Shown one piece after another: positions 16,573-34,110 of a DNA stretch of 34,461 bases; within the stretch, counting starts at the first letter, position 1; every line of letters begins with the position of its first letter. Under the pieces are notes generated by a model. The model was not told where the DNA came from. It saw only the letters and a program-made list of their open reading frames with translations, and did not search any database. A program made the translations under genes and the position numbers. The DNA is from Chthoniobacterales bacterium (GTDB lineage Bacteria; Verrucomicrobiota; Verrucomicrobiia; Chthoniobacterales; UBA6821), in contig JAPJNA010000077.1 in NCBI GenBank assembly GCA_026461395.1, positions 1 through 34,461 on the forward strand. The letters are read 5' to 3'.

Positions 16573-17496
16573 CTATTCCAACACGAGTGTCATCGCACCG
16601 AAGAGAAGCAATGCCCCAATCAAACGCCGGGTCATCACTCCTACCCTGCTTGGACTCGTCGAAGAATCACCGGCCATCGCTCCCAGAACCCAGACCAGCA
16701 GGACACTCCAAAGACACCGCGATCCGTACAAAATATTGGTCATGGTGGCGCTTCCGAAGAGGCCGATTGCCGAGTACATGGCAAGAGCCTGAACGGCCAG
16801 CAGCAAGGCTCCGCCAAGAAGCCAGGGAAGAGACGTGAAAAACGGGCTCCCCTCAACAAGGAAACTGCGGATGCCCCCTCCACTAACACTGGCCCTCGAA
16901 CTCATAAGTCGGGGGACATAGACCAACGAAAACAGACCAACGGAGCCGAACATGAGCGGGGCAAACCTACTGTATCCTACCGAGGGAACCCAGCATTGCA
17001 CCAAGACGTCGGTAAGGGCAAAAACGGCGGCAGCGGATAGGGACCATGCAACAGCCTCCAGCAGCCTCGCATGGTTCCCGCCAGGAGAATAGGAGATGAG
17101 GGCAATACCAAGGCTGGCCATTAAGGAGGCCATCCAGATGGCATGAGGAAGACTTTTTCCAATCAGAAAAAAGGAGAAAAGTGCAACCAGTAGAACCTTG
17201 GATCCCAAGAGCGGCGTGGCGACGGAGACATCACCAGTGTGGATGGCCTTGAATGTGAAGATCTGCCCCAGAAAAAACAACCCCCCACACGCGACCGGCG
17301 GCAGGATCATCCCGAGTGCCAAGGGATGACCCGGCAATAACCAGAGTCCTTGGAACAAAACGGCCATGACTGTGTTGCAAAGAAAATTAACCCAGTCACC
17401 CGATACGCCAGCACCAAGAGATCGCTTAATCGCGACTGCTCCACAGGCGTAACCAAAGCCTGCCGCCAGAGGCAAGACCAATGCGATGGGGCTCAC
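16573..17496 (-). CDS. EamA/DMT superfamily transporter
   Basis: An inner-membrane permease of the drug/metabolite transporter type: 307 residues with about ten hydrophobic helices arranged as two EamA halves, the second starting near LLEAVAWSLSAAAVFAL. Substrate cannot be read from sequence. The neighbouring aromatic pathway genes make amino-acid or aromatic-metabolite export a guess only. The start is taken as GTG 17496 because it overlaps the aroD stop (GTGA, 4 bases) and has GAGG 10 bases upstream. The ATG at 17583 would add 29 Arg/Pro-rich residues and a 91-base overlap with aroD, which is unlikely. Confidence 0.82.
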   Translation of the reverse strand: MSPIALVLPLAAGFGYACGAVAIKRSLGAGVSGDWVNFLCNTVMAVLFQGLWLLPGHPLALGMILPPVACGGLFFLGQIFTFKAIHTGDVSVATPLLGSKVLLVALFSFFLIGKSLPHAIWMASLMASLGIALISYSPGGNHARLLEAVAWSLSAAAVFALTDVLVQCWVPSVGYSRFAPLMFGSVGLFSLVYVPRLMSSRASVSGGGIRSFLVEGSPFFTSLPWLLGGALLLAVQALAMYSAIGLFGSATMTNILYGSRCLWSVLLVWVLGAMAGDSSTSPSRVGVMTRRLIGALLLFGAMTLVLE

Positions 17497-18203
17497 CTCG
17501 GCAGAACCTCGTCTAGGATTACGCGGAGCTTCTGAGCGGGCCACTGGCCTGGAACCTGCGGACTTCCAAGCCACCCGTAACAAAGCGGCGTTCCGAACCC
17601 TGCAAGAACGATCCTGGAAAAACGCCCAGCATCCCCCATCCCCATCGCGATGACGGGAATCTCGGTCCGGCTCAACTGGAGATCAATCAGACGCTGCAAG
17701 TCATGGCGGTCCCGTAGCAGTGTCGCCACCTTGAAGAGATCTGCTCCATGAACAGCGGCTTGAGAAGCCAGTTTTTTCAACATAGGAAGCGTCGGAGTGG
17801 CCTTAAAATCATGATGCGAGAGGATAAGCGTCCTTCCATGCTGATGGGCCCGGGCAATCACGGGAGCGAGTGAGCGGGCTGAGCGCAGCTCGATATCCAG
17901 CGCCGAAGCCCATGGAAGTGCGGATTCCAACAAAGCCTGACGGCTTGATTGGGAAAGATTCCCAGCACCACCCTCAGCGGGATGGCGGGCCGTTGCTATC
18001 AACGGAAGGGGCCAGCGCACAGGCAGTCCGGTCAGGGGCAGCGCGTCAAGCCTGACCTCGAGAAGATCAATGCCTCGCAGCAAGGAATCCGCGGTCGCCG
18101 CCTTTTTTAAAAACTTTAGTCCAGCCTGATCGTGGAGCGTTCCCACGACGAGGGAAGCTCCTTCCCGAAGGAGGGGCTGAAGGCTCTGGATTTGACGGCG
18201 CAT
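17493..18203 (-). CDS. aroD: Type I 3-dehydroquinate dehydratase
   Basis: Third shikimate-pathway step: dehydrates 3-dehydroquinate through a Schiff-base lysine. From ATG 18203 the protein is 236 residues, a normal length for type I. The substrate-binding EVRLD (Glu49, Arg51), catalytic His131 in SHHDFKATPT, Schiff-base Lys158 in GADLFKVATL and the C-terminal PGQWP segment are all present. A longer frame from 18284 would add 27 poorly conserved residues and overlap the divergent sugar-transferase gene, so 18203 is preferred. It is the first gene of the minus-strand cluster with eamA and trpD. Type I enzymes are less common than AroQ in many phyla, but this one is complete. Confidence 0.9.
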   Translation of the reverse strand: MRRQIQSLQPLLREGASLVVGTLHDQAGLKFLKKAATADSLLRGIDLLEVRLDALPLTGLPVRWPLPLIATARHPAEGGAGNLSQSSRQALLESALPWASALDIELRSARSLAPVIARAHQHGRTLILSHHDFKATPTLPMLKKLASQAAVHGADLFKVATLLRDRHDLQRLIDLQLSRTEIPVIAMGMGDAGRFSRIVLAGFGTPLCYGWLGSPQVPGQWPAQKLRVILDEVLPR

Positions 18204-18246
18204 GATCTTCACTTTAGTAATGTCATCTTTTCTTTCCTTACCCACT

Positions 18247-19629
18247 ATGAACCGCAAGCAGGAAATCTCCAAGGATCTACCCATGATTCTCGACGGACTG
18301 ATGGTCGGCGTCTGTCTCTGGGTATGTTACCTGCTCAGATCGACAGGGATCATCCGCCTCGACCGACTGGGCGAGATCCCCTCCTTTTCGAGCACCCTTT
18401 GGATTCTTGCACTCATTATTCCGTTCACGCCGCTCCTTCTCGATCTGCATGGTTATTACGAGCAGCCCCTTTCGCAGCCCCTAGAGAAGCTCCTAATCAA
18501 GATCGTTAAGGCAGGCTTCTGGCTTATCCTACTAATCAGTGCCGCATCGATTTTCGGACGTCTGGAAATCCCGAGTCGATCCGTTCTGATCCTCTTCCTG
18601 ATTCTGACACCTGGATTCTTGATCCTCAGAGTCAGAATGATGAGGAAACTCCTGATCCATTTTTACAATCAAGGGAACTTTGGAGAGCAAAGTTTCCTGG
18701 TGGGAAATGATGCTGATTGTGAGGCCTTCCTCTTGGGAATCTCCCCTTCAGAGCTGATGGAGCTTCAGATTGTTGGAATGATGGATCTGGCGAAACATGA
18801 TCCACAAACAATCCTGCAAAACATCCGCGAGAAAATCGCAGGCAGGGTTATTTTCGTCTCGTCCAAATCTGCTGCAAACAACGATCTCCCGCTCACCTGT
18901 GAGATCGAGGGGTTAGATGTCTGGATTTTATCCGAAAATATCAATGGCATTACCAGCACTCCTTCCTTTGAGCAGGTCGGCAAAAATCGGATGCTGTCTT
19001 TCTGCAAATCACCTATTGATTTTTGGCAGCAATTCATCAAAAGAATTCTGGATGTCTGCGGGGCTATGATAGGGGCAGTCGTTCTTTCACCAATTTGCCT
19101 GATAATCGCCATCACCATCAAGTGCACCTCTCCCGGGCCAATCTTTTTTTCCCAAGTACGAAGCGGAAGAAGAGGGAAACGTTTTACGATTTACAAATTC
19201 CGTTCCATGGTCGCAAATGCCCCGGAACTGCATGCCGACCTCTCGAAGCAAAACGAGATGGAGGGGCCCGTTTTTAAAATCAAGAAGGATCCCCGGGTCA
19301 CGCGCTTCGGGGCATTCCTTAGGCACACGAGCCTTGACGAGGTGCCACAACTAATCAACGTGCTGCGTGGAGAGATGAGCATCGTCGGCCCCACGCCACT
19401 CCCAGACTACGAAACCAAACTCATAGAAAAAAGTACTCACCGGCGCCGCCTGAGCGTAAAGCCAGGACTCACCTGCCTCTGGCAGATTCAGGGGAGAAGC
19501 TCGATCAAAAGCTTTGATGACTGGGTCCAGCTTGATCTTGAATACATCGACAAGGCATCTCTGTTTCTCGATCTCTGGATCATCCTTCGCACCATTCCCG
19601 CCGTACTTTTACGTAAAGGAGCGCGATAG
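18247..19629 (+). CDS. Undecaprenyl-phosphate sugar-1-phosphate transferase (exopolysaccharide polyprenyl glycosylphosphotransferase)
   Basis: Inner-membrane enzyme that starts a lipid-linked surface polysaccharide by moving a sugar phosphate onto undecaprenyl phosphate. The 460-residue protein has four or five N-terminal hydrophobic helices (to about residue 135), a central Rossmann-like domain (about 145-250) and the C-terminal bacterial sugar transferase domain (265-455). In the latter, KRILDVCGAMIGAVVLSP is the re-entrant helix; YKFRSM, DEVPQL, SIVGPTPL and KPGLTCLWQ are the catalytic signatures. An in-frame ATG at 18202 would start inside the aroD start region, so ATG 18247 (MNRKQE) is preferred. 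Sugar specificity is unknown. Followed by the pilus-like operon after 94 bases. Confidence 0.92.
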   Translation: MNRKQEISKDLPMILDGLMVGVCLWVCYLLRSTGIIRLDRLGEIPSFSSTLWILALIIPFTPLLLDLHGYYEQPLSQPLEKLLIKIVKAGFWLILLISAASIFGRLEIPSRSVLILFLILTPGFLILRVRMMRKLLIHFYNQGNFGEQSFLVGNDADCEAFLLGISPSELMELQIVGMMDLAKHDPQTILQNIREKIAGRVIFVSSKSAANNDLPLTCEIEGLDVWILSENINGITSTPSFEQVGKNRMLSFCKSPIDFWQQFIKRILDVCGAMIGAVVLSPICLIIAITIKCTSPGPIFFSQVRSGRRGKRFTIYKFRSMVANAPELHADLSKQNEMEGPVFKIKKDPRVTRFGAFLRHTSLDEVPQLINVLRGEMSIVGPTPLPDYETKLIEKSTHRRRLSVKPGLTCLWQIQGRSSIKSFDDWVQLDLEYIDKASLFLDLWIILRTIPAVLLRKGAR

Positions 19630-19723: not shown

Positions 19724-20359
19724 ATGTATCGCCCCACTCTCCCCCTGTTACTGAAAAGACTCTTTAATCCCTGTGCATTTCTCTTGTTTTGCAGCTTGTC
19801 GTTGCACTCACAAAATACCACGGGCTTCGTGATTTCAAAGATCGAACCGGCCATTATCACAACGCCTGCGATCTCCTATTCCGGAGGCACCCAGAAGCCC
19901 TCTCGTCCGAAAAACTGGTTGGAAATCGAGGTTACTTTCGGCTGGCAGCCCACGGGGCCAATGACCGCCGCTGACAAGTATGCGGACGACATTGTTGTGG
20001 ACTACTACGTCCTGCTGTCGAACAAGAGTTCATCTTCCCCTCAGGGAACACTACTCACGGGGCAGGTCACTCACACCTCCGTGCCAGCTATGCAAAATGA
20101 CCTTAAGTCAGTCATGTATGTTAGCCCAAGAACATTGGAACGCCTCTTCGACGGGAAGCCTCCCGCCAGCGCCTCTTCAGCAATAGTCGATATCGGTGTC
20201 ACCATCTCCCGCCAGGGACAGTTGGTCGCCCAAAAAAGCCTCAAGTCAGCCGGTGTCTGGTGGCCACAATATCAAAAGACCAGCGGCTTCTTGCTCAGTA
20301 AAAACGAGACTCCCTTCGCATCCCTCAACTCCGACTATTATGAGGCGGTGAAGAAGTAG
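19724..20359 (+). CDS. Amuc_1102-like pilus-associated exported protein
   Basis: A 211-residue protein with an N-terminal signal sequence (RLFNPCAFLLFCSLSLHSQ, residues about 12-30), then a domain rich in beta strands (WLEIEVTFGWQPTG, VVDYYVLLSNKS, AIVDIGVTISRQGQ) consistent with an immunoglobulin-like fold. No catalytic motif is visible. Its place directly before the PilM-like gene matches Amuc_1102 of the Akkermansia pilus-like locus, and the size is similar. It likely acts in the periplasm or at the surface with the other operon products, but the biochemical role is unknown. The assignment rests on gene order plus general features, not on a recognised sequence motif. It precedes the PilM-like gene by 41 bases. 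Confidence 0.65.
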   Translation: MYRPTLPLLLKRLFNPCAFLLFCSLSLHSQNTTGFVISKIEPAIITTPAISYSGGTQKPSRPKNWLEIEVTFGWQPTGPMTAADKYADDIVVDYYVLLSNKSSSSPQGTLLTGQVTHTSVPAMQNDLKSVMYVSPRTLERLFDGKPPASASSAIVDIGVTISRQGQLVAQKSLKSAGVWWPQYQKTSGFLLSKNETPFASLNSDYYEAVKK

Positions 20360-20400
20360 TAAGGGTTCTCCAGAAAACCCCGCCCTTATAGCTTTCCCCC

Positions 20401-22101
20401 ATGGCATCGCCAAAAAAGACCTTGGTCCTCGATCTCGGAATGCAGTCCCTAAGGATTGCCGAGTTTTCTTCGACTGAGAGCGGTGGATTAAAGCTTCTGC
20501 GAGGCGCCCGGAGAGAACTCATGCTCGATCCAGCGCTCGATACATCGCGACCGGATCAGATCCGACTCGCCCTTAAGGACATTCTAAAAGCATGGAGGAT
20601 CACTCGGTCGGATGTCGTCTGCGTACTGCCTGCCCATACGGTCTTCACGAGGGTTGTTCCCCTGGAAGTCCCTGGAGGCTCATCGAGCCAAGTGGCGGCC
20701 GTTGTCGGTTTTGAAGCCCAACAGAACATACCCTTCCCTCTGGAAGAAGTCGTCTGGGATTATGTCGTGATGGGAAATACCCCGTCCGGTGCTGTGAATG
20801 TTATTTTTGCAGCTATCAAAACTGACTTGCTGGAATCGCTCTGCGATTCAGTAGCCTCCACCGGCCTAAATATTACTGCCGTGCTGGTAGCTCCCCTCGC
20901 GCTCTATGATGCATTCCTCCATGCTTCTTCAGCAACTGCATCGGAAACGACCCTCCTGCTGGATATGGGATCTCGGACTTCCAACATGATCATCTCTGCA
21001 GAAGGATCCTTCTTCTCACGAAGCATTCCTTCCGGAGGATTGGCTGTCACTTCCGCGATTGCCAAGGATATCCATGCAGAGCTTGATGAGGCGGAAAAGC
21101 TGAAGATTGCCCGCGGTAGCGTTGCGCTTGGTGCCGGCTTCGAGCAAGCAACCGACCCCATCGAGGCCAATATCGCACGTATTGCAAGACAGACTCTACT
21201 CAAGACTCAGGCCGACATCAGTCGCTCCCTAAGCTACTACAGATCAAACCTCGGGGGAAATGAGCCCACGTTAATTCTTCTAACAGGAGGAATGGCCTAC
21301 CTCCCCTATCTGGCTGAATTCTTCAACGAAAAACTGCAGAAAAAGACCTCTTTCTTCAATCCGATGGAAGACATCGGAGTTGCCGAATCCGCGCACTCCT
21401 TCCTTGAGTCGAATTCCAATAATTTGGGGGAACTAGTGGGAGGGGCTTTGGTATTGACCTCCTCCCCGCGAACCAAGATCAACCTCCTTCCCCCATCTGT
21501 ATCCAAGAAACGATCCTTCGCCAAACGCATCCCTTACCTGGCTGCTGCCGTCCTCTTTTTCCTTGCAAGTCTCGGGGCCTTGTATGGCTTTGCTTTGCAA
21601 GCAACCTCCTTGACGCGTGCCACGACGGCAACGATCGATAAGCAGATCGCCGACCAAACCAGTATATCAAATCGGATTAAGACCAAAGTAGAGAACGAAC
21701 TCGCCATCCAGCAGACGACTGACATCCTTCTTTCTTTGGTTAGCCTTTGGGAAGCCTACCCGAGGATCCTTACCGAACTGAGCACGAAGGTACCTGAGCG
21801 GTATCTCTGGATCACAGAAATCCAACCTGCAGTGGATACTTCTGCGAGGGGCGTTTCTCCCAACAGTAACGATGGCTCCATCAAGGCTCTGTTAGTCAAA
21901 GGGCTCTACCTTGACAATCCCAAGCAGGCCTCAGTGATCGATGATTTCGTCACTTCCCTTCAGTCCTCGGATGTCTTTGCCGTCGAGGAAAAGGAAAAAT
22001 CCAAGATCATCACTCAGCGAGGCAGTCCCAATGGGGAATACTGGGCTTATCCTTTTTCACTCAGGATTCCTCTTCGCAATCCCTTCACTCCCCTTCCCTG
22101 A
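20401..22101 (+). CDS. PilM-PilN fusion (Amuc_1101-like pilus assembly ATPase-fold protein)
   Basis: A 566-residue protein. Residues 1-352 are a PilM/FtsA-type actin-like domain: VLDLGMQSLRIAEF (phosphate 1), FEAQQNIPFPLEEVVWDY (PilM signature), LLDMGSRTSNMII (phosphate 2, 187-199) and LLTGGMAYLPYL (adenosine loop). It then has INLLPP at 360-365, followed by a basic stretch, one transmembrane helix (about 378-400), a coiled coil and a small alpha/beta domain. This is how PilN proteins begin and are built. In classical systems PilN's N-terminal INLLP peptide docks in a groove of PilM; here both are in one chain. It is probably the cytoplasm-to-periplasm link of the pilus machine. Its stop is 4 bases before the next ATG. 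Confidence 0.85.
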   Translation: MASPKKTLVLDLGMQSLRIAEFSSTESGGLKLLRGARRELMLDPALDTSRPDQIRLALKDILKAWRITRSDVVCVLPAHTVFTRVVPLEVPGGSSSQVAAVVGFEAQQNIPFPLEEVVWDYVVMGNTPSGAVNVIFAAIKTDLLESLCDSVASTGLNITAVLVAPLALYDAFLHASSATASETTLLLDMGSRTSNMIISAEGSFFSRSIPSGGLAVTSAIAKDIHAELDEAEKLKIARGSVALGAGFEQATDPIEANIARIARQTLLKTQADISRSLSYYRSNLGGNEPTLILLTGGMAYLPYLAEFFNEKLQKKTSFFNPMEDIGVAESAHSFLESNSNNLGELVGGALVLTSSPRTKINLLPPSVSKKRSFAKRIPYLAAAVLFFLASLGALYGFALQATSLTRATTATIDKQIADQTSISNRIKTKVENELAIQQTTDILLSLVSLWEAYPRILTELSTKVPERYLWITEIQPAVDTSARGVSPNSNDGSIKALLVKGLYLDNPKQASVIDDFVTSLQSSDVFAVEEKEKSKIITQRGSPNGEYWAYPFSLRIPLRNPFTPLP

Positions 22102-22105
22102 ACTG

Positions 22106-23062
22106 ATGAACAAGATCACCAAATGGTTTGCGGGCAACAAGCTGGCAGCCTCTCTTTTAGCCCCCCTGATCCTTGGAACACTCATCCTTGGATTTCTGGC
22201 CTATCAGGCATGGGATGATTATGGAACTGCCTCTGCGGATTATACCTCCAAGGCATCCCAACTGGTGAAGCTCTCGCAAACTAAACCGTTTCCCAGTCAG
22301 GATAATCTCTCCAAGCTTGAAGCAACCATAAACACTGAGCAGTCCAGCCTGGACGCCCTCATCAAGGATCTCCAGAAGTATCAGGTGCCCTCCTTTGCCG
22401 ACATTGGCAAAGCAAAACTCCAGGATCGACCTCAACGCTTTCAGGATGCACTGCGTATCGAGGTGACTAGGATCAAATCACTAGCCGCAAGCGCTGGTGC
22501 CACACTACCACCGGGATTCTATCTCGGCCTTGATGAATACGAAAATCGTCTTCCCTCCCAAGAGGATGTCCGAATTCTTTCCAAACAACTCACCATTCTG
22601 AGCTGGCTAGGCGAATTGCTTGCCACCCATAAGGATCTGATTCTTTCTGAATTCTCTAGATCCACCTCAGAAATGTTGGCGAAAAAGGATTCGCCGAAAA
22701 AAACACCCCCAGCTCTTCCGGGGAAAGTTTCCACCCCCTATGAGAATGCCTGCAGTATGAAGTTGAGCTTTCGATGCAACCAGGGTTCTTTTCGGGAAAT
22801 TGTGAATGCGGTTTCAACGGCACCTTATTTCCTGATTATTGATCAGCTCCTTATTCGCAACACCTCTAGCGAGCCCCCCAGACGCGATACGCAACCGCCC
22901 ACTGCAGCTTCCCCTCTGGACGGAAGCACCCCGATTCAGAGACTCCCAATCATTGTTGGAAGGGAACTTCTCGATATCTCGCTGAATCTCCGCGGACTGG
23001 AGTTCCCTGATCAGGGATCATCCACCTCAACGAACTTGCAACCCAAACCTGAGGCAAGGTAA
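22106..23062 (+). CDS. Amuc_1100-like pilus-associated membrane protein
   Basis: From ATG 22106 the protein is 318 residues, essentially the 317-residue length of Akkermansia Amuc_1100, the TLR2-active outer-surface protein of that genus. It has a short cytoplasmic N-terminus (MNKITKWFAGNK), one transmembrane helix (about 13-34), a long coiled coil (about 38-130) and a C-terminal alpha/beta part (FRCNQGSFREIVNAVSTAPY, VGRELLDISLNLRGLEF) reminiscent of the ferredoxin-like domains of PilO/EpsM proteins. It probably forms part of the periplasmic alignment complex. A longer frame reaching back to 21941 overlaps the PilM-like gene and is rejected. The next gene follows after 7 bases. Host interaction cannot be inferred here. 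Confidence 0.75.
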   Translation: MNKITKWFAGNKLAASLLAPLILGTLILGFLAYQAWDDYGTASADYTSKASQLVKLSQTKPFPSQDNLSKLEATINTEQSSLDALIKDLQKYQVPSFADIGKAKLQDRPQRFQDALRIEVTRIKSLAASAGATLPPGFYLGLDEYENRLPSQEDVRILSKQLTILSWLGELLATHKDLILSEFSRSTSEMLAKKDSPKKTPPALPGKVSTPYENACSMKLSFRCNQGSFREIVNAVSTAPYFLIIDQLLIRNTSSEPPRRDTQPPTAASPLDGSTPIQRLPIIVGRELLDISLNLRGLEFPDQGSSTSTNLQPKPEAR

Positions 23063-23069
23063 CAGGCCT

Positions 23070-24158
23070 ATGAATAATCTGATCATTCGCCACTACCATT
23101 TAGTGCTCTTGGGAATCGCCTCGCTTATTTCCATAGGTACCGCCGTGTTTCTGATCACCCAGTCGCTCGGATTTCAAGACTCTCTCAAAGGGGCCGATTC
23201 CCTCTCAAAACAGGAAAAAATCCCGTCGCCACTGGCCTCTTCGAATGCAGTCGTTGCTATCGAGCATTTGAAAAAGCCCACGCTTTGGAATCCGAGTGAC
23301 AATGGCTCATCCCCGCTGGTCTCGCGTCCATATCTCCTCAAGGAAGGCAAACTCATTGATCCGATGGTGGGTAACGAGCCGCTCTACCCCCCCGTTCCGA
23401 ACCAGTGGCTCATCGATCACCAACTCGACTATACGGATGTTAATATTCTGGATCGTGATCCCAAGCATAAGGGATTTACCGTGCGTGAGGAATTTCTAGC
23501 AGGAACCGATCCCAACAACGAGGAAGAGTTCCCCCCGCTACACACGAAGCTCAATTATGGTGAAAATGATATCCGCAAGAGTAGCTATATCCTGGAATTT
23601 GTGGGTGTTGAAACGAATGCGCTCACTGACTCCAATGGGATCACCGATACAAAGAATATGACAGTTGAGTATCAGTTGAGACCATCTCAACCTCTTCCCA
23701 ATCCATCAAAAGGGAACCGCCCCGACACTTCCGTAAGGGTCGTACTCAAAGGGGAAACCGTACCTGGAGCCCCCTTCCTCAAAATGGTGGACTACAGCGA
23801 TAAGAAAAAAACGATCCATGATACAGAGTATGATGTGAGCGAACTCATCCTGCAAAACACCCTCACCGGAGAGCACCTCACCCTGATGAAGAAGAATTCT
23901 TCTAGAGAATACAGAAAGTCACCCATTGAACTTGTTGAAAGCGTCACCTTCCATTACCAACTCTCTGGCGCTCCTGTTGAGGATGTTACGGTGGAACGGG
24001 GCAAGACCTTCAATCTGTCCGGCTTGGAAAAAAAACATGTAGAAACTTATAAGCTCCTTGATTTCTCAAAAGAGGGGATTCTGCTGAGCAAGGATGGAAA
24101 AAATTACACAATCAAGTCATCCTCTTCTCCATCCCCGAGTCCGAGCCCTTCTCTGTGA
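23070..24158 (+). CDS. Amuc_1099-like pilus-associated protein (PilP-position)
   Basis: A 362-residue bitopic protein: short N-terminus, one transmembrane helix (about 9-31), then a periplasmic region. Residues about 122-150 contain an acidic Asp-rich loop (VNILDRDPKH, EEFLAGTDPNNEEE) like the thrombospondin type-3/dockerin-like calcium loops common in Verrucomicrobiota. The C-terminal half holds beta-rich repeats (KKTIHDTEYDVSELILQN; YKLLDFSKEGILLSKDGKN) and a Ser-Pro tail (SPSPSPSPSL). It sits where pilP lies in pilMNOPQ operons and where Amuc_1099 lies in Akkermansia, so a secretin-linking role is the best inference. Its TGA overlaps the next GTG (GTGA). No catalytic motif. Confidence 0.65.
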   Translation: MNNLIIRHYHLVLLGIASLISIGTAVFLITQSLGFQDSLKGADSLSKQEKIPSPLASSNAVVAIEHLKKPTLWNPSDNGSSPLVSRPYLLKEGKLIDPMVGNEPLYPPVPNQWLIDHQLDYTDVNILDRDPKHKGFTVREEFLAGTDPNNEEEFPPLHTKLNYGENDIRKSSYILEFVGVETNALTDSNGITDTKNMTVEYQLRPSQPLPNPSKGNRPDTSVRVVLKGETVPGAPFLKMVDYSDKKKTIHDTEYDVSELILQNTLTGEHLTLMKKNSSREYRKSPIELVESVTFHYQLSGAPVEDVTVERGKTFNLSGLEKKHVETYKLLDFSKEGILLSKDGKNYTIKSSSSPSPSPSPSL

Positions 24159-26746
24159 GGAGCTTGTCCTCATTAATCCCCCTTCGCATCACAATGACTC
24201 AACCCCTGAACATCTCGAAGATACGCCTGCGAACACTTGTTCTTTCCATAGTGGCTATCAGGTTCATCGTTGGAGTAGCTCTTTCACCTTCATTTGCTTA
24301 CGCGCAGCAGAGCGGGGTCATTGGCCAATCGGAGCGTGAAATCCGGATTCTTCAAGAAAGAAGTAGCTGGGCGCAGACCCAGACTCAAAAAGCCATCACC
24401 GCCATGGCGGACAAGGATTACGAATCCGCTTTTGCTTTTTCCAAGAGCGCCGTAGATGCATTACCCTACGGTGGTGAGTCTTCTGCAGGCTTGCGTTCTC
24501 TGTCTCTTGAGACCTTTTCCAAGTCTGCTTGTGCCTTGGCCAGGCAACGGGTGAGCGAAGGCTACTACGATGATGCTGAGTTGGTGGTGAAAACAGCCAC
24601 CGATAAGCCTTATGCATCGTCTTATGCACCCTTGCTGGATCTTCAGAAATCACTTCGTGACCCAAACCATTTCAACAGGACTATCACTCCCGGATTCGTC
24701 GCCAAGGTGACTCAGGTTGAACAGTTGATGAACGAAGCCGAGGGGCTCTACGCATCGGGTCGCTTCGATGCTGCGTTCAACAAATATCAGATGGTTCTCA
24801 ATCTGGATCCTGAAAATAGATCTGCCCGTCTCGGGATGGAAAAAGTCAATAAAGAGCGGTCTGATTACGCGGAAACAGCCTACACTGAGAGGAGGAGTCA
24901 GATGATCACCGACGTAGCAAGGGCATGGGAACTCCCTGTGCCAAAAATCAATACAGGCGCCACTACGATCGTCGAGCAGAGCCCTATCGATATGCAGGGC
25001 ACCAGTGCCATCAGCCGAAAACTCCAAGAGATCAGGCTTCCTCAACTCTCCCTTTCCGACGAGACCGTACGCGAAGCTGTGGAAAAGCTTCAGAAAAAAT
25101 CACGCGTCTTGGACACAACCGAAACAGATCCCGCCAAGAAGGGAGTGAATATTGTTCTCAAGCTCGATCCGGCCAAGGAAGCAGTCGATGGCGGCACCAA
25201 ACTCAATCTTTCCCTCAACGACCTCCCTCTTGGAGAGGCCCTGAAATATATCGCCTCGGCTGCAAATCTTAAGGTCAAGATAGAACCGTACGCGGTGGCC
25301 ATCGTTCCCCTCTCCGAACCAACAGAGACCCTTATCTCGAAAGAATACAAGGTGCCTCCAGGGTTCATCTCCAGCGCCTCTGCTTCTACCCCAACCGGTA
25401 CACTTCCGACGGCAGGAGTTCCGGGGTCATCTGGTACAGTAGGTAAAGCGGGCGCGAAGGAGTTTCTGGAATCCCAGGGCGTCACCTTCCCCGCGGGAGC
25501 CAGCGCGACATACCTGGCTTCAAGCAGTAAGTTGCTTGTGAAGAACACCCAGTCAAACCTCGACCTGATCGACTCCCTGGTGGAGGTCTCGCTAGCCACG
25601 CCCCCCAGTCAGGTGGAAATCGAGGCCCGCTTTCTCGAAGTCTCACAGAATAATCTCCAGGAACTTGGCTTTGACTGGCTGATGGGGGCATTCCAACTTC
25701 CTGGTGGTAGTGGAGTCAATACCGGAGGCGGCACGGTTGGCAATCGACAGGGACAGGCCAACAGAGGCAATTACCCTTTTGTAAGCCCTGCTGGCCAACC
25801 TGCCGGAGCGATGGCTGTGGATCCACTCGGCAATGTCACCGCAGGAAATGTCACCTCAGGAAACCGAACAGGTTCGGCCGCTGTTACCGCGAATGCATTG
25901 GATGCCCTCCTTTTCGGTTCGCCCACAGGACCGGCGGCAGGCGTCCTAGCATTGGCGGGAATCTTCACGAATCCCCAGTTCCAAGTCGTACTACGAGCCA
26001 TTAATCAACAGAAGGGAGTTGATCTTGTCTCTGCACCCAAGGTGACCGTCACCAGTGGGCGCAAGGCCACAATCAACATCACTCAGAAATTCCCCTACCC
26101 GAAAGACTACTCACCTCCGACTGTTGTTGCGGCCACAACACCAGGACAAATACAGCCTGCGAATCCAGCCACACCAACCTCCTTTGAGACGCGAAATTGC
26201 GGTGTGCAACTTGAAGTGGAACCAACCGTTGGGCCTGATGGCTACACTATTGAGCTCAGTCTTTCTCCTCAGATCACGGAGTTTCAGGGTTTTGTTAATT
26301 ACGGCTCACCTATTAACAGCATTGCTACAGTGTACGACGCAATTTTACAAAATAGATCTATCGGCACTCAAAGGGTTTTTCTTACAGCAAATACAATTAA
26401 TCAACCTGTCTTTAGCGTGCGCCAGGTCGATACTCAAGTGACGGTCTATGATGGACAGACAGTTGTCTTGGGTGGACTCATGCGGGAAGATGTCCAGAAG
26501 GTTCAGGACAAGACACCTATTGTGGGAGATCTTCCCCTAGTGGGATCCCTCTTCCGCAGCTCGAGCAACCAGCGGATTAAGAGAAACCTTCTCATCTTCG
26601 TCTCAGCCGGTCTCCTGGATCCCGCAGGCCAACCCCTGATCAAAACAGTGGAAAATGGAACGGAAATCTCTATTCCCGACGCGAGAGCTGTTGCCTCCGA
26701 GGCAATTCCGGGTGATCCCTCGACCGCTTCGAAATCCAGCCGATGA
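24155..26746 (+). CDS. Type IV pilus outer-membrane secretin, Amuc_1098/PilQ-like (copy 1)
   Basis: An 863-residue protein from GTG 24155, or 850 from ATG 24194. Signal peptide ends near AYAQQ (residues 48-52). Residues 60-240 form helical/TPR-like repeats (EAEGLYASGRFDAAFNKYQ). An STN/N0-N1 type domain follows (about 295-400, GVNIVLKL, LNDLPLGEALKYIA, IEPYAVAIVPL). Then come an N-domain (about 440-500) and the secretin core (about 600-825), with the signature VGDLPLVGSLF at 790-800 and KRNLLIFVSAGLL. Secretins form the outer-membrane pore for the pilus. The GTG overlaps the previous stop by 4 bases, matching the tight packing of the operon; the ATG gives a cleaner signal peptide. Its stop overlaps the next start. 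Confidence 0.88.
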   Translation: MRSLSSLIPLRITMTQPLNISKIRLRTLVLSIVAIRFIVGVALSPSFAYAQQSGVIGQSEREIRILQERSSWAQTQTQKAITAMADKDYESAFAFSKSAVDALPYGGESSAGLRSLSLETFSKSACALARQRVSEGYYDDAELVVKTATDKPYASSYAPLLDLQKSLRDPNHFNRTITPGFVAKVTQVEQLMNEAEGLYASGRFDAAFNKYQMVLNLDPENRSARLGMEKVNKERSDYAETAYTERRSQMITDVARAWELPVPKINTGATTIVEQSPIDMQGTSAISRKLQEIRLPQLSLSDETVREAVEKLQKKSRVLDTTETDPAKKGVNIVLKLDPAKEAVDGGTKLNLSLNDLPLGEALKYIASAANLKVKIEPYAVAIVPLSEPTETLISKEYKVPPGFISSASASTPTGTLPTAGVPGSSGTVGKAGAKEFLESQGVTFPAGASATYLASSSKLLVKNTQSNLDLIDSLVEVSLATPPSQVEIEARFLEVSQNNLQELGFDWLMGAFQLPGGSGVNTGGGTVGNRQGQANRGNYPFVSPAGQPAGAMAVDPLGNVTAGNVTSGNRTGSAAVTANALDALLFGSPTGPAAGVLALAGIFTNPQFQVVLRAINQQKGVDLVSAPKVTVTSGRKATINITQKFPYPKDYSPPTVVAATTPGQIQPANPATPTSFETRNCGVQLEVEPTVGPDGYTIELSLSPQITEFQGFVNYGSPINSIATVYDAILQNRSIGTQRVFLTANTINQPVFSVRQVDTQVTVYDGQTVVLGGLMREDVQKVQDKTPIVGDLPLVGSLFRSSSNQRIKRNLLIFVSAGLLDPAGQPLIKTVENGTEISIPDARAVASEAIPGDPSTASKSSR

Positions 26747-29406
26747 ACAAGCTGCATATCATTGTCATGCACAGCTTCAAACCTTCTTTTTACCCTCGTC
26801 TCCTCCCACTTTTGTTCGTTGCGAGCGTCGTTATGGCCGGCTTCGGTTCCTGGAAACTGAGGGCACAGACTCCATCAGTCGTTGCAGATTCGGAACGAGC
26901 AATCGTTCGCAGTCAGGAAGACCTGATTCAAGCACGCGTACTGATGCAGTCTGCCATGCAGAAATACTCCCAGCACGACCTCAAGGGGGCCTATGCCCTA
27001 GCCGTGGAAGCCATGAAGCAAGCCCCTTCGGGCACCTCTGCCAGTCGCATAAGGAGCACTCTCCTTTCGGACTACACGACCATCGCGCTGGCCTTTGCCC
27101 GTGAGTTGGCTCAGAACGGCCTCTTCACCGACAGCATCGCCAGAAAGTCAGGCATCATGGACGCCAACGGTCTCCCTCTCTCGGCTGAAGGCGTCGCCAA
27201 ATCCATCTTGGACCCTTCCATGAATCCAAGCTCTAAAGCCGCAGTGAAATTTCTCTCCGATCTGGAACAGCCAGGCATCTTTAACAAAACAGTCACCCCC
27301 ACCTTTGCAGCCAAGCGCGAAGAGGTGATCAAGCTTCTCAGGCAAGCTTCCGACCTCGCAAAAACAGGTCGCAACGAACTGGCCCTCAAACAATACGAGG
27401 CGATCCTTCAGATCGACCCCTATAACAACGCTGCACGCCTAGGAATGGAGGAAATCCACAACTCCACGAACAAGTATGCTGACGAGGCTTATAATGAGAC
27501 GCGAAGCAGAATGCTCTGGCAGGTTGATAAAGCCTGGGAGCGTCCACCTCGTAAGTCGAAACAGGGGCGCACGACCGAATCAGTAGGTCGTCAACAGGAC
27601 ATACGGGGAACGGATCAGATCACAGCCAAGCTGAATTCCATTATCATACCCAAAATCGACTTGAGCGACTCGCCGATCAGTGAAGCTGTCGAGTACCTGA
27701 AGCAGAAAAGCGTTGAGCAGGATCCAAACCACAAGGGTGTGAATATTTTCCTAAAGCTCGGCTCACAACCATCCTCATTACTACCTCAGGGTGTGACATC
27801 CACCAATGCCGCCGCTACCGGTGTGTCCGCCCAGCCCAACGCGGGATCAACAGAGCCTCATGTCACACTGGCCCTCTCCCATGTGCCTCTCTATGTAGCC
27901 CTCGACTACATCAGCAAGCTCTGCAATCTGAAGCTCAAAATCGATCCCTACGCTGTCTCGATCGTCCCTCTCTCAGAACCAACGGACATCCTGATCACCA
28001 AAGAATATCAAGTTCCCCCGACCTTCATCCCACCTAAGGCTCTGGATGGAGGGGCGTCTCTCCCTCAGGCTGGGGCTACAGGAGTGGGCGACCCGAACAA
28101 GGCACGCGTCGCGCAACGTCAGGAGGCCAAGGAGTATCTGATTTCTCAAGGGGTGGTTTTTCCGGATGGTGCCAGTGCCAACTACCTCCCCTCTGGCAGT
28201 AAGCTCGTGATTCGGAATACAAGGGATAATATCGATCAGATCGATGCCCTTGTGGATGCCGCAATGGGGGTCGCCCCATCACAAGTCGATATCCAGACGA
28301 AATTCATAGAAATCAATCAGAACAACATTCAGGAACTTGGATTCGATTGGTTGCTCGGACCATTTAGCATCGGAGGTAGCGGCGTCTATGGAAGCGGTGG
28401 TGGTGGATCCAACTCTCTGACTGGTGCGAATTATCCCTTTGCCGGTCCTGGAGGTGTACCTGCTGGCATGAATACCGTGGGCAGTCTCCGGAGTGGTGAT
28501 CGGGCCATCAGCCAGAATTCCATCAGCTCCCTTCTAGCTGGTCAGGCAGGCGGCTCCTTATCTCCTGCCCCCGGAGTCTTTAGCGTGGCTGGGGTCTTCA
28601 CGGATCCTCAATTCCAAATGGTCATTCATGCCCTGAATCAGAAAAAAGGGGTGGATTTGATGGCCGCCCCCAAGGTCACGACCAAGAGCGGCGTCAAAGC
28701 CACAGTCAAAATCGTCAATGAGTTCATCTATCCGCGCCAGTACGACCCTCCAACATTTACTCAATCTCAAGGTGGTGGACAGGGCGGGAATATTGCAATT
28801 GACCCAAAGACGATCCCTCCACCAACAGTGACCCCTGCCTTTCCGAGGGATTTTACAAAACAGGATCTCGGCGTGGTCTTGGAGGCCAAGCCGACGATTG
28901 GGCCCGATGGTTATACGATCGACCTGGAGTTAAACCCCAAAGTCACGGACTTCGATGGCTTTATCAACTATGGATCCCCCATTAATGGCGTGGGATATAC
29001 GGAAGGATTCTTTTTAAATCGTCCTGCTCTCATCCCAGTTTCGCAAACACTCACTACGAATACGATCAACCAACCGGTCTTTAGCGTGCGTGAAGTCAAT
29101 ACCTTCGTGACGGTCTGGGATGGCCAGACCGTGGCACTCGGGGGGCTGATCCGAGAGGATGTCCAGAAGATTCAGGACAAGGTGCCGATCTTAGGAGACC
29201 TTCCGATGGCCGGCCGACTCTTCCGCTCCGATGCAGACCAAAAAATTAAAAAGAACTTGGTCATCTTCGTAACGCCCCGAATCCTTGATGCCGAAGGCCA
29301 ACCGCGTCGCGGCGACACTGAGGAATCTGAGATCGTGACGCCCTTGGGACTACCTCAAGACTTGCCCCAGCCGTCCATGACGTCACCCGCTGTCAGAGGA
29401 AAATAA
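26743..29406 (+). CDS. Type IV pilus outer-membrane secretin, Amuc_1098/PilQ-like (copy 2)
   Basis: An 887-residue paralogue of the preceding secretin with the same plan: signal peptide (hydrophobic LLPLLFVASVVMAG, cleavage near RAQ at about 42), helical repeats (about 60-240), N0/N1-like domain (about 300-420, GVNIFLKLGS, LSHVPLYVALDYIS, IDPYAVSIVPLSEP), N-domain (about 450-510) and secretin core (about 620-845) with LGDLPMAGRLF at 817-827. Its extra region (about 545-590) is a Gly/Ser-rich loop. Eyeballed identity with copy 1 is highest in the core and near SIVPLSEP. It starts in a 4-base ATGA overlap with copy 1, so both are made together. Akkermansia, as far as I recall, has a single gene here. 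Confidence 0.88.
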   Translation: MNKLHIIVMHSFKPSFYPRLLPLLFVASVVMAGFGSWKLRAQTPSVVADSERAIVRSQEDLIQARVLMQSAMQKYSQHDLKGAYALAVEAMKQAPSGTSASRIRSTLLSDYTTIALAFARELAQNGLFTDSIARKSGIMDANGLPLSAEGVAKSILDPSMNPSSKAAVKFLSDLEQPGIFNKTVTPTFAAKREEVIKLLRQASDLAKTGRNELALKQYEAILQIDPYNNAARLGMEEIHNSTNKYADEAYNETRSRMLWQVDKAWERPPRKSKQGRTTESVGRQQDIRGTDQITAKLNSIIIPKIDLSDSPISEAVEYLKQKSVEQDPNHKGVNIFLKLGSQPSSLLPQGVTSTNAAATGVSAQPNAGSTEPHVTLALSHVPLYVALDYISKLCNLKLKIDPYAVSIVPLSEPTDILITKEYQVPPTFIPPKALDGGASLPQAGATGVGDPNKARVAQRQEAKEYLISQGVVFPDGASANYLPSGSKLVIRNTRDNIDQIDALVDAAMGVAPSQVDIQTKFIEINQNNIQELGFDWLLGPFSIGGSGVYGSGGGGSNSLTGANYPFAGPGGVPAGMNTVGSLRSGDRAISQNSISSLLAGQAGGSLSPAPGVFSVAGVFTDPQFQMVIHALNQKKGVDLMAAPKVTTKSGVKATVKIVNEFIYPRQYDPPTFTQSQGGGQGGNIAIDPKTIPPPTVTPAFPRDFTKQDLGVVLEAKPTIGPDGYTIDLELNPKVTDFDGFINYGSPINGVGYTEGFFLNRPALIPVSQTLTTNTINQPVFSVREVNTFVTVWDGQTVALGGLIREDVQKIQDKVPILGDLPMAGRLFRSDADQKIKKNLVIFVTPRILDAEGQPRRGDTEESEIVTPLGLPQDLPQPSMTSPAVRGK

Positions 29407-29469: not shown

Positions 29470-30069
29470 ATGCCGTCCATAGCGATCACGGGTAGTATCG
29501 GGAGCGGCAAATCCCTTGCCCTAAAATTACTAGCTCAGCTTCTGCCGTCGAACATCTACAACGCTGATCTCGAAAATCGTAAACTGCTCGACCATGATGA
29601 AGAGGTCCGTGACCACATCAAAAAGGCATTTGGTGACGCCTGTTTTGACAGTTTGGGATATCCGGACAGGAAACACCTTTTTGAACTCATCACATCAGAT
29701 CAATCGGCGAAAACTTTGCTTGAGGGAATTCTCCATCCGCGATTAGAGAAAGTCTGGAAGCCGCGGGCTCTCGCATCCAGGGGGACCAAAAGTGATTTTT
29801 TCATCGCGGAAATCCCCCTTCTTTACGAGAAAGGTTTGGAAAACTTCTTCGATAAGGTCATTCTCGTTGCCTGCTCAGATTCAGTCAGGAGAGAACGACT
29901 GAAGTTGAATCGCCAGCTCTCTCACACCGAAACCTTGGCTTGGTTAAAAAACCAAACTACTCAGGAGCAAAAAATCCTCCTTGCGGATCACCTTCTTTGG
30001 AATGACTCCTCGACTCCCATGCTAGAACTCCAGATCCGGCATCTACTACCGCTTTTGAAAAACCTATGA
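29470..30069 (+). CDS. coaE: Dephospho-CoA kinase
   Basis: Last step of coenzyme A synthesis: phosphorylates the 3' hydroxyl of dephospho-CoA. A 199-residue P-loop kinase with GSIGSGKS (8-15), the NADLENRKLL segment corresponding to the substrate-binding DxD/xxR region, ILHPRL (CoaE signature HPxxR region), FFIAEIPLLYEKG and VACSDSVRRERLK. Length is normal. The start is preceded by a tandem CCATCAGATG duplication, which creates an out-of-frame ATG at 29460; the annotated ATG gives the conserved N-terminus. It overlaps rho by 4 bases (ATGA), indicating translational coupling. It is also a possible physiological partner of the phosphopantetheinyl transferase (CoA consumer) at 9.6-10.3 kb. Confidence 0.92.
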   Translation: MPSIAITGSIGSGKSLALKLLAQLLPSNIYNADLENRKLLDHDEEVRDHIKKAFGDACFDSLGYPDRKHLFELITSDQSAKTLLEGILHPRLEKVWKPRALASRGTKSDFFIAEIPLLYEKGLENFFDKVILVACSDSVRRERLKLNRQLSHTETLAWLKNQTTQEQKILLADHLLWNDSSTPMLELQIRHLLPLLKNL

Positions 30070-31421
30070 ACTCCGGCCACATCCCTCATGAAGCCGATGC
30101 AGAACTCCCCTTAACGGATACTCCCATGCAAACCTCCTCAAAGGAGGTGCTTCCGGTCGAGATACCTTCTCCGCTGGATATGGATGTGCTTCACGGTTCA
30201 AGCCATAAGATTCTCCTGGAGTTGATTGCCTCCAGAAACCTTCCCCTGCACCGGGATTCCTCAAGACATCATCTAGTGCTCGATCTGGCGAGGGATCAAC
30301 TGAAGAGGGGCGGCACTCTCACGGCGGAGGGAATCCTGGAGTTTGCTCCAGATGCACCGATGATCCGCTGGCCTCAATTTAATTTTCAACCTACTCCCTG
30401 CGATCTCAACCTTCCCATTCCCTTGCTTCGCCAGTACGAGTTGCGCCCCGGTCTGAGAATCAAGGGAACGGTCGCGTTACAATCCGAACGGAAGCTGGCG
30501 CTCCAAACACTCACGGACATCGAAGGAATACCGGCAGAGTCTTGGAAAAGCCCAACGGAGTTTGACAATCTCACGGCCATGTTCCCCAACAGGAGGATCT
30601 ATCTGGAGCAGCCAGGCAAAAATAATCCGACGGCTCGGGCCGTTGATCTGATCGCCCCACTGGGAATGGGTCAGCGCGGGTTGATCGTGGCTCCCCCACG
30701 TGTAGGAAAGACCATGATGCTCAAGAGCCTGGCCCTCGCGATCCGGGCCAATCATCCCGATGTCCATCTCATGCTCCTCCTGGTGGATGAGCGACCCGAG
30801 GAGGTCACCGATCTACGAAGGGCACTGGACTGCGATATTTTCAGCTCCACCTTCGATGAACCCACTGCGCGCCATGTACAGGTTTCAGAGATGGTCTCGG
30901 AACGCTCCAAGCGCCTTGTAGAACTGAAAAAGGACGTCGTGATTCTTGTGGATAGCATCACACGCCTTTCGCGCGGCTATAACAACAACATCCAGGGCAA
31001 AGGCCGCACCATGAGCGGCGGCGTGGACTCGGCGGCCCTTGCTCGTCCCAAAAAATTCTTCGGCTCTGCTCGCAATGTCGAGGAGGGAGGGAGTCTCACC
31101 ATTCTCGCCACCGCCCTGGTGGAAACGCATAGCCGCATGGATGACTTGATCTTCGAGGAATATAAAGGGACGGGAAATATGGAAATCTACCTGGATCGTT
31201 CCATCATGGAGCAGCGTGTTTTCCCGGCCATCCATATCACTAAGTCTGGAACCCGTCGGGAGGAACTTCTTTATCATCCAGACGAATACGAGCGGATCCT
31301 GAAGTTACGGAAGCAACTCATGGAGATCCCGGCGGTCGAGGCAATGCAGATCCTCTGCCTGAACATGGAAACCACCAAGAGTAACGCAGAACTCCTTCTT
31401 GGAGGGATCAAGGGACTCTAA
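30066..31421 (+). CDS. rho: Transcription termination factor Rho
   Basis: Hexameric RNA-dependent ATPase that ends transcription. The 451-residue protein has a 60-residue acidic/variable N-terminus, the Rho N-domain (about 55-140) and the ATPase core. Core motifs: Walker [22 protein letters not shown] (Walker B region), the Q-loop region [11 protein letters not shown], the R-loop [20 protein letters not shown]-like [10 protein letters not shown], and [11 protein letters not shown]. The primary RNA-binding RNP1 motif, normally DGFGFLR, is instead DAPMIRW in [19 protein letters not shown], so the key aromatic residues are missing. Walker A has Arg for the usual Lys (PPKAGKT). Coupled to coaE by a 4-base overlap. 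Identification is certain; the RNA-binding change is discussed in the findings. Confidence 0.96.
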
Positions 31422-31494: not shown

Positions 31495-34110
31495 TTGGAG
31501 AACTCCCTCAATAAACATCTCGCAGTGACTGAGCGTGTAATTGTCCGATCAAAGTTCTTCTTCGAGGGGGAGAAGAAATTCTTTGTTAAAGGAGTCACCT
31601 ATGCACCATTCGCCCCTGATTCGGAAGGATTCCAGTTTGGACCCAATGAGCAGGTTGCCCGTGATCTGGCCGTCATTCGAGAAACAGGTGCCAACCTGAT
31701 CCGTATCTACACGACTCCGCCGCGTTGGTTCCTAGATCTCTGCCTAGAGAATGGCCTGCGAGTTCTCTTCAGCATTGCGTGGATGGAGCATGTCGAGTTT
31801 CTGAATGATGCGAAGGTAAGAGCCTCCGTGGAGAAAGCCGTTCTCGATGCCGTGAGGGAGCACAAAGGCCATCATGCGATCTTCGGTTACCTGCTGGGAA
31901 ACGAGATCCCCTCCTCCATGGTGCGCTGGCTGGGAGCAAAGAGGGTAACCGAATTCCTGGAGCATCTGGTCAACATCGCCCGTCACGAGGATCCGCGGGC
32001 ACTCTACTCCTATGCAAGCTATCCTCCCACAGAGTACCTGCTTCCGCAAAACGTCGACTTCCTGACATTCAATGTCTACCTGCACCGCAGAGAAGATTTT
32101 GAGCGCTATCTAGCCCGCCTTCAGAATCTGGCCGAGGACAAGCCCCTCATGATGGGTGAATTCGGGATGGATACGATCCGGCACACCGAAGAGGAACAGG
32201 CAGAGATGATCGGTTGGCATCTGGATGCTGTCGTGCGGGGAGGTCTTGCAGGAACCATTCTCTACGCCTGGACGGATGAGTGGCATCGCGGGGGCATGGA
32301 AATCCTAGACTGGGCCTTCGGTCTTGTGAAACGCGACCGCACACCCAAAAAGGCACTTTCGACGGTCAGGGAGTTTTTTGACAATAGCCAATCTATCACG
32401 CATCACGCGCCCCTACCCCGCGTTCCCAAGGTCTCGGTGATTGTCTGTAGCTACAATGGTGGCCAGACCTTGGAAGCATGTCTTCGCTCCCTCAAAAAAA
32501 TCGATTATCCCGATTACGAAGTTGTCGTTGTCGATGACGGTTCGACGGACCAGACAAAGGAGATTCTCTCTCATCACCCCTGGGTAAATGCCATTTACCA
32601 GACGAATCACGGCCTCAGTTATGCGAGGAATGTCGGCGCGGCGGCGGCCACTGGCGAGATTATTGCCTACACCGACAGCGACTGCATGGCAGATCCTGAC
32701 TGGCTCTACTATCTTGTAGGAACCCTCCTCTCGGGGAACTATGCCGGCGTCGGGGGACCGAATATCTCCCCTCCCGCTCAGAATTGGCATCAGGCATGCG
32801 TTGCCGCCGCACCGGGAGGCCCGAGTCACGTTCTTCTCACGGATGTCGTCGCGGAACATATCCCCGGGTGCAACATGGCCTTTTACCGCTGGGCCTTTGA
32901 AAAGATCGGAGGCTTCGATCCAGAATACCGAAAAGCTGGTGACGACGTGGACTTTTGCTGGCGCCTTCAACAGGAGGGCGAGGTGATTGCCTTCAGCCCT
33001 TCGGCCATCGTGTGGCACTATCGCCGCTTCACCCTGAAGGCTTTCCGTAAGCAGCAGGAAGGTTATGGAGAGGCCGAATCCCTCCTTCGCTTTAAGCACC
33101 TGGTTTTCTTTGGTCCGACCGGTACAGCCAAGTGGAAGGGGCAAGTCTATGGAGCACCGCGATTCACATGGCTGATCAACCAACCCGTGATTTATCATGG
33201 CGTCTTTGGTGAAGGGCTCTTCCAGTGCATCTACCCCACCCCGCAGTCGGAACTGGCCGCCTATCTGAGCAGCATCGAATGGGTCACCCTTACCGCCTTT
33301 CTCTTTCTCCTGGCCATTCCTTTCCCCGTCCTGCGGATCGTGGCCTATCTGATGTTCGGAGGCACCTTCCTCGTCGCTCTATCCTACATGATTCATGCCA
33401 AGCTGGAGCCACGTTTCGATACGATCAGGGCACGTCTGCTAGTGGCATTTCTCGCCCTTTCCCAGCCCTTGGTGAGAGGATGGGCCCGATACTTCACCTG
33501 GCTCAAGTTCAAGCGCACGCCGGAATCCGTCATCGCCGCCAAGGAAAAAGACTTCAAGCCCAGTAAGATCCGCGGGCTCTCGAAACTTGTTTTGTGGAAT
33601 GAGGAAGGAAAGGGGCGCGAACTTCTGATCACTTCGGTCATCGAGGCTTTGGAAAACGAAGGCTGGAGCTACTCCACCGACACGGGTTGGAAGGATTGGG
33701 ATGTCCAGATTTATGGAAGTTTCTGGTGGGGAGTCACCATGAGAAGCGTTACCGAATACCATGGCGGCCCTAAATGCCTGACTCGTGTAGGCCTCGCCTC
33801 CCGGATGGTGGCAACCACGTTTTTGGCAAATTTCCTTATGATCAGCCTACTGATCTATCTCGCGGCGTCAGGACATTCGATGCTTCTTCCCCTAGGCCTT
33901 TACGCGGCGGCCATGTTTGTCATCTGGACTCGAGGGTACCGTTTAAAGAAACGAGTTGTCGAACTGGTGGAGGCAAGCGGCCAGCGAATAGGACTCAGTA
34001 GGGTCGATCCGCGGAAAAGCAATGCATTCAGTGAAACGCGAAAGGATACAGGGGAAGCGTCTGAACCATCAGGCGAGAGCATCGAAACCCCGGTATCCCC
34101 TCAATCCTGA
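31495..34110 (+). CDS. Glycoside hydrolase (clan GH-A TIM barrel)-GT2 glycosyltransferase fusion, membrane protein
   Basis: An 871-residue two-enzyme protein. Residues about 15-300 form a clan GH-A-type TIM barrel (FVKGVTYAPFAP, ANLIRIYTTPP) with the acid/base pair GNEIP (Asn136, Glu137) and nucleophile candidate MMGEFGMD (Glu222). Residues about 310-570 are a GT2 domain: VSVIVCSYNGG, VVVDDGSTDQT (DDGS 347-350), the DSD metal motif in YTDSDCMADP (394-396), GFDPEY and AGDDVDFCWRL, then KQQEGYGEAE in the Q/RxxRW position. The end has hydrophobic helices (about 595-640 and 790-835). It probably makes or trims a polysaccharide at the inner membrane. The start is TTG 31495, with GTG 31525 the alternative; AGAGGAG is 20 bases before the TTG. 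The start is uncertain. Confidence 0.85.
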   Translation: MENSLNKHLAVTERVIVRSKFFFEGEKKFFVKGVTYAPFAPDSEGFQFGPNEQVARDLAVIRETGANLIRIYTTPPRWFLDLCLENGLRVLFSIAWMEHVEFLNDAKVRASVEKAVLDAVREHKGHHAIFGYLLGNEIPSSMVRWLGAKRVTEFLEHLVNIARHEDPRALYSYASYPPTEYLLPQNVDFLTFNVYLHRREDFERYLARLQNLAEDKPLMMGEFGMDTIRHTEEEQAEMIGWHLDAVVRGGLAGTILYAWTDEWHRGGMEILDWAFGLVKRDRTPKKALSTVREFFDNSQSITHHAPLPRVPKVSVIVCSYNGGQTLEACLRSLKKIDYPDYEVVVVDDGSTDQTKEILSHHPWVNAIYQTNHGLSYARNVGAAAATGEIIAYTDSDCMADPDWLYYLVGTLLSGNYAGVGGPNISPPAQNWHQACVAAAPGGPSHVLLTDVVAEHIPGCNMAFYRWAFEKIGGFDPEYRKAGDDVDFCWRLQQEGEVIAFSPSAIVWHYRRFTLKAFRKQQEGYGEAESLLRFKHLVFFGPTGTAKWKGQVYGAPRFTWLINQPVIYHGVFGEGLFQCIYPTPQSELAAYLSSIEWVTLTAFLFLLAIPFPVLRIVAYLMFGGTFLVALSYMIHAKLEPRFDTIRARLLVAFLALSQPLVRGWARYFTWLKFKRTPESVIAAKEKDFKPSKIRGLSKLVLWNEEGKGRELLITSVIEALENEGWSYSTDTGWKDWDVQIYGSFWWGVTMRSVTEYHGGPKCLTRVGLASRMVATTFLANFLMISLLIYLAASGHSMLLPLGLYAAAMFVIWTRGYRLKKRVVELVEASGQRIGLSRVDPRKSNAFSETRKDTGEASEPSGESIETPVSPQS

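Follow-up and report, generated by a model that had tools for sequence, protein, structure and literature searches.

Amuc_1100 of Akkermansia is a TLR2 agonist that has been studied as a host-directed probiotic protein. Its gene lies in a cluster that in Akkermansia muciniphila comprises five families in the order Amuc_1102-1101-1100-1099-1098, followed by coaE and rho (PMC5332112, PMC4960237, PMC13174399). The locus, named MUL2, was described across Akkermansiaceae in 2026 and tied to a type IV-like pilus and to glycan uptake, with the 1101, 1100 and 1099 proteins left uncharacterised or called only 'a PilM protein' (PMC13174399). Two further machines resemble it: the type IVa pilus operon pilM-N-O-P-Q of Pseudomonas, Myxococcus and Thermus, and the type II secretion set GspL-M-C-D, which has related inner-membrane folds and a secretin. 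Here we analysed a window of 34,461 nucleotides, one contig (C52) of a 2.03-Mb, 95% complete draft genome of a Chthoniobacterales (Spartobacteria) bacterium, assembled from a metagenome in 80 contigs. Our results indicate that this known kind of locus is a type IV pilus alignment operon spread throughout the phylum, of which this order has a variant with tandem secretins.

The operon consists of six genes on the forward strand, and re-derivation of the open reading frames gave exactly the spacing claimed in a sequence-only reading, with gaps of 41, 4 and 7 bases followed by two 4-base overlaps. The same reading had proposed that these genes encode the machine of the Amuc_1102-1098 cluster, and family, structure and gene order all bear this out. 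Each of the six products matched its expected NCBIfam family (E values from 1e-29 to 1e-232), an AlphaFold2 (AF2) model of the 1100 protein matched crystal structures of Amuc_1100 (Foldseek 2e-9; VIA Z 18.5), and the order is identical in an Akkermansia-type genome (L114), including the downstream coaE-rho pair. All five families passed their NCBIfam cut-offs in the L114 operon. In the window, the 1101 and 1100 proteins fell below their equivalog cut-offs and are backed by structure and synteny; these scores fit their distance from the Akkermansia proteins, to which they are roughly 15-30% identical. Across the operon, window proteins are only about 15-35% identical to their Akkermansia counterparts. 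Horizontal transfer from Akkermansia was considered and ruled out: the window secretins sit among those of other Chthoniobacterales, and the neighbourhood is common to them.

The first gene (19724-20359) encodes a 211-residue exported protein of the Amuc_1102 (MUL2A) family, over the cut-off of NF042424 (9.3e-30) and matched by phmmer to the Amuc_1102 structure 7dsz (9e-8). It is followed by a 566-residue member of the Amuc_1101 (MUL2B) family (20401-22101; NF045709 1.2e-138, 464 bits against a cut-off of 650), which also matches the PilM family PF11104 (1.7e-27). Positions 1-351 of the 1101 family profile match PilM (3e-58) and positions 356-483 match PilN (4.6e-8), the latter restricted to the N-terminal helix region of PilN; with the C-terminal part alone, PilN is matched at 2.1e-5. 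A predicted transmembrane helix lies between the two parts at residues ~381-399, and the junction carries the sequence INLLPPSV, which we take to resemble the N-terminal INLLP motif of PilN. Because the profile matches first PilM and then PilN, with a hydrophobic segment at residue 381, the 1101 protein is, as judged from sequence, a PilM-PilN fusion.

The third gene (22106-23062) encodes a bitopic protein of 318 residues, compared with 317 in Akkermansia. Its start lies within a longer mechanically called frame that begins at 21941 and is backed by homologues of equal length, such as L075:7926-8879. In addition to its NF038287 match (2.4e-40, 139 bits against a cut-off of 180), the 1100 profile (A2) matched structure 6lad at 1.4e-61. 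The AF2 model (pLDDT 83.5) gave its VIA Z score of 18.5 with the Amuc_1100 crystals and next matched PilO at Z 8.5, so that the modelled protein is PilO-like in fold.

The fourth gene (23070-24158) encodes a 362-residue bitopic protein of the Amuc_1099 family, over the cut-off of NF042425 (2.5e-40). For its AF2 model (pLDDT 86.7), the two best VIA matches were both PilP, at Z 6.1 and 6.0, with 66-69 residues aligned within residues ~172-280; the next entry, an unrelated protein, scored Z 4.3, which is 1.7 lower. A VIA Z below 8 can reflect a common arrangement, the match at Z ~6 spans one third of the protein, and Foldseek alone returned only small unrelated beta domains, with no significant match for this model. 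The model is thus suggestive, but not proof, of a PilP-like beta domain at residues ~172-280. The sequence-only reading had set a match to Amuc_1100 and Amuc_1099 against a fit to PilO and PilP. Both products do match the Amuc families, but the comparison does not discriminate and poses a false choice, because the fold of Amuc_1100 is itself PilO-like, so that a protein can be both, and the 1099 protein probably contains a domain resembling PilP.

The fourth protein had also been described as carrying a calcium loop. It is indeed a bitopic member of the 1099 family, but its TSP3-type loop (residues ~130-141) is DPKHKGF, against a family consensus of DPDGDGF, with lysines at the usual second and third ligand positions in the alignment. 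The degenerate form DPxxKGF is shared by the window protein and its eight closest homologues, whereas the loop is intact in most other members, including those of Akkermansia. Canonical calcium binding is therefore not expected, on this alignment, for these nine proteins. The DxDxDG loop is a common trait of the family rather than a curated requirement, and the window protein passes the NCBIfam cut-off with its loop altered; PF18884, the bacterial TSP3-type loop, was found in 13 of 46 members of the 1099 family and not in that of the window. Degeneration of this loop in the window's genus seems to be under-reported.

Set beside the type IVa operon, the locus has counterparts of PilM, PilN, PilO, probably PilP, and PilQ in matching order, with several differences. 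PilM and PilN form one protein; the PilP-like part is not a lipoprotein but bitopic, and contains the TSP3-type loop as well as a further beta domain at its C terminus; a 1102 protein heads the operon; and the secretin, which is present twice, carries a TPR-like region at its N terminus. Alternatively, the genes could encode a second secretion system, type II-like with GspL-M-C-D-like parts, for the export of enzymes instead of pili. The folds of GspL and GspM are related to those of PilM-N and PilO, and we detected weak profile matches to both (3e-4 each), EpsL and PulM matches for the 1100 model at Z 6-6.5, and similar scores of the secretins against GspD and PilQ models. By both profile and structure comparison, however, GspL-, GspM- and GspC-type matches do not beat the stronger ones to PilM, PilN, PilO and PilP. 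The genome also encodes a separate type II secretion system on contig C77, with its own GspD, GspG and GspM-like protein, and contains PilT-family ATPases, which are typical of pili. We therefore consider the secretion-system reading improbable.

The remaining parts of a pilus are present in the genome. PilB-type ATPases are encoded on contigs C66 (two) and C18 (one), PilT-type ATPases in the window (one) and on C1 (two), and a PilC/GspF platform protein adjoins a prepilin on C38, with many other prepilins elsewhere. Motors, platform protein and pilins are unlinked to the operon, with the exception of the PilT/PilU-family ATPase of the window (13963-15048, reverse strand; TIGR01420 353 bits, over cut-off), which lies about 5 kb upstream and is a candidate retraction motor. 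We infer that the scattered motors serve this operon rather than the type II secretion system. Overlapping the ATPase gene by 4 bases is a gene for a 649-residue exported-looking protein (12017-13966, reverse strand) without a Pfam or NCBIfam match, in which a transglutaminase-like stretch (GGICVDQAYYAA...GHAWVGYL...WDLN) can be seen by eye. This protein may be a pilus-linked partner.

To place the locus in its phylum, we examined its distribution by profile search. Of 241 Verrucomicrobiota genomes sampled, 188 contain the Amuc_1100 family (107 of 133 genera), compared with one match, below the cut-off, among 14 control genomes, and the 1102 profile was matched in 139 of the 241. Among the matches listed, wherever 1102 and 1100 share a contig (94 cases), the former directly precedes the latter on the same strand, and a 1098-type secretin directly follows 1100 in all 107 cases in which these two share a contig. 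The secretin profile itself (NF042912) found 233 of 241 genomes at E 1e-3, a figure we do not use for distribution because any secretin matches it, as seen in 8 of the 14 controls. We found no viral contigs that carry the 1100 protein. These counts point to an ancient operon that spans the phylum. Its presence in an environmental verrucomicrobium is no surprise and has largely been published (PMC13174399).

In the window's own order, 125 of 147 Chthoniobacterales genomes contain the 1099 family, including 91 of the 101 good genomes, and 104 contain the 1102 family. The 1099 family is almost completely missing from one family, f61, and from the 0.9-Mb f3 genomes, which are probably Xiphinematobacter; in two of these reduced f3 genomes (G036 and G057) the 1099, 1100 and 1102 families were not found. 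A 2.5-Mb relative of these two (G260) keeps the operon and its tandem secretins. By profile search, the locus is well kept in Chthoniobacterales and merely diverged in sequence, a degree of conservation that is higher than the MUL2 study suggests (PMC13174399) and seems to be under-reported. The nearest named relatives of the window are uncultured Spartobacteria of this order, with secretin identities of up to 88%. Most are metagenome-assembled and apparently from freshwater, a lake habitat being read from record names, in agreement with the environmental, non-Akkermansia background that had been claimed for the window.

Because the Amuc_1100 locus is phylum-wide, we infer on grounds of distribution, as the earlier reading had proposed, that host signalling is very unlikely to have been its original role. 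As Amuc_1100 here emerges as a PilO-type component of a pilus operon that most of the sampled Verrucomicrobiota carry, its immune effect is most simply read as a by-product of a basic surface machine.

The last two genes of the operon both encode Amuc_1098/PilQ-type secretins. Copy a (24155-26746; GTG start, 863 residues) scored 774.5 bits against NF042912 and 2.4e-33 against the Pfam Secretin family, and copy b (26743-29406; 887 residues) scored 750.7 bits against the NF042912 cut-off of 750. Akkermansia, in contrast, has one secretin in the operon and a second copy elsewhere. In principle, the tandem pair could be an assembly artefact or a very recent, meaningless duplication, given a draft genome of 80 contigs. 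The two copies, however, are full length and only 43% identical, and adjacent copies recur in 27 of the 57 Chthoniobacterales genomes (of 72 searched) with a strong secretin match. A further 23 of these genomes have a single copy, three have pairs that are split at contig ends or irregular, and four have fragments or a copy elsewhere; some pairs may be hidden by contig breaks. Pairs were found in families f1, f3, f4, f58, f63 and f66, and single secretins mainly in f2, f59, f60, f62, f64 and f65.

A quick-search tree with SH-aLRT support, built from 61 secretins, placed the first copies of 15 Chthoniobacterales loci, including the window, in one clade (a) and the second copies of the same loci in another (b). 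Two clades that each contain the same lineages leave an artefact or recent duplication exceedingly improbable. As clades a and b share their lineages and pairs span several families, the tandem secretins are, as far as the tree and pair counts tell, the product of an old duplication whose copies have both long been retained by six of the order's sampled families. Secretins of Akkermansiaceae group together, the remote second copy among them, and stand apart from those of Chthoniobacterales. The two Akkermansia secretins are thus not supported as orthologues of a and b, and the Chthoniobacterales duplication is apparently independent of Akkermansia's second secretin. The tree supports no single order of splits among a, b and the single-copy clades. 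A separate tandem pair, on long branches, was found in a genome of another order (G078, family f10) and looks like an independent event. Long open frames had hinted at fused secretins in relatives, but a stop codon separates the copies in both loci examined (L135 and L149). The old duplication in Chthoniobacterales seems to be under-reported.

Together, these comparisons make it very probable that the locus is a verrucomicrobial type IV pilus alignment operon (pilM-N-O-P-Q), vertically inherited and with an ancestral role in attachment and polymer uptake. In such a machine, the PilM half of the 1101 protein would face the cytoplasm and couple to PilB/PilT motors, and the PilN half would cross the inner membrane. 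The PilO-like 1100 and PilP-like 1099 proteins would span the periplasm and connect to the 1098 secretin (PilQ), which would let the pilus through, and the exported 1102 protein would be an accessory or a part that resembles pilins. Ancestrally, such a motor-driven pilus would have served to attach cells to surfaces and to take up polymers, and TLR2 activation by Amuc_1100 would be incidental to it. In Chthoniobacterales the secretin gene was duplicated in tandem, and both copies were retained. Pilus function in the window's organism is thus suggested by gene content, and the assignments of 1101 as PilM-PilN, 1100 as PilO-like and 1099 as PilP-like give these proteins directly testable roles.

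Alternatively, the machine may have become a dedicated importer of polymers, a function proposed for the Akkermansia mul loci, with separate secretin pores for pilus and glycan. Akkermansia requires mul genes for mucin uptake and Akkermansiaceae from aquatic habitats import fucoidan (PMC13174399, PMC12418764), the paralogous secretins have long been kept, and a polysaccharide-type sugar transferase lies directly upstream of the operon. No Sus-like genes adjoin the operon in the window, however, where only an ExbD/TolR-type protein is found 12 kb away, and the paralogues may equally make one mixed ring. A dedicated importer therefore seems doubtful. We likewise hold only tentatively that the secretins are functionally distinct paralogues on one PilMN-O-P base, forming either separate rings for pilus and polymer import or a single mixed ring; if so, Chthoniobacterales have long held a two-pore type IV pilus machine. 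The retained pair lends itself to the question of why one pilus machine should have two outer-membrane pores.

The neighbourhood of the operon is conserved on both sides. Upstream lies the sugar transferase, an exopolysaccharide polyprenyl glycosylphosphotransferase (18202-19629, forward strand; TIGR03025, over cut-off) that synteny shows to be kept in many Chthoniobacterales. It is preceded by aroD, encoding 3-dehydroquinate dehydratase (17493-18284, reverse strand; TIGR01093 1.5e-31, 110 bits against a cut-off of 139, with synteny), a gene also found beside MUL2 in Akkermansiaceae (PMC13174399). As mechanically called, these two divergent genes share 83 bases, and the transferase probably starts further in than 18202. 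Downstream, coaE, encoding dephospho-CoA kinase (29470-30069, forward strand; TIGR00152), and rho (30066-31421, forward strand; NF006886), both over cut-off, occupy the same place in relatives and in the L114 operon. The secretin and coaE are about 3 kb apart in two distant families, with other sequence in between (L147:4020-7156 and L148:4875-8329). Directly after rho, the window encodes an 871-residue protein (31495-34110) that combines a glycoside-hydrolase-like TIM barrel (GH72/GH2-like) with a family 2 glycosyltransferase and is kept in the closest relatives.
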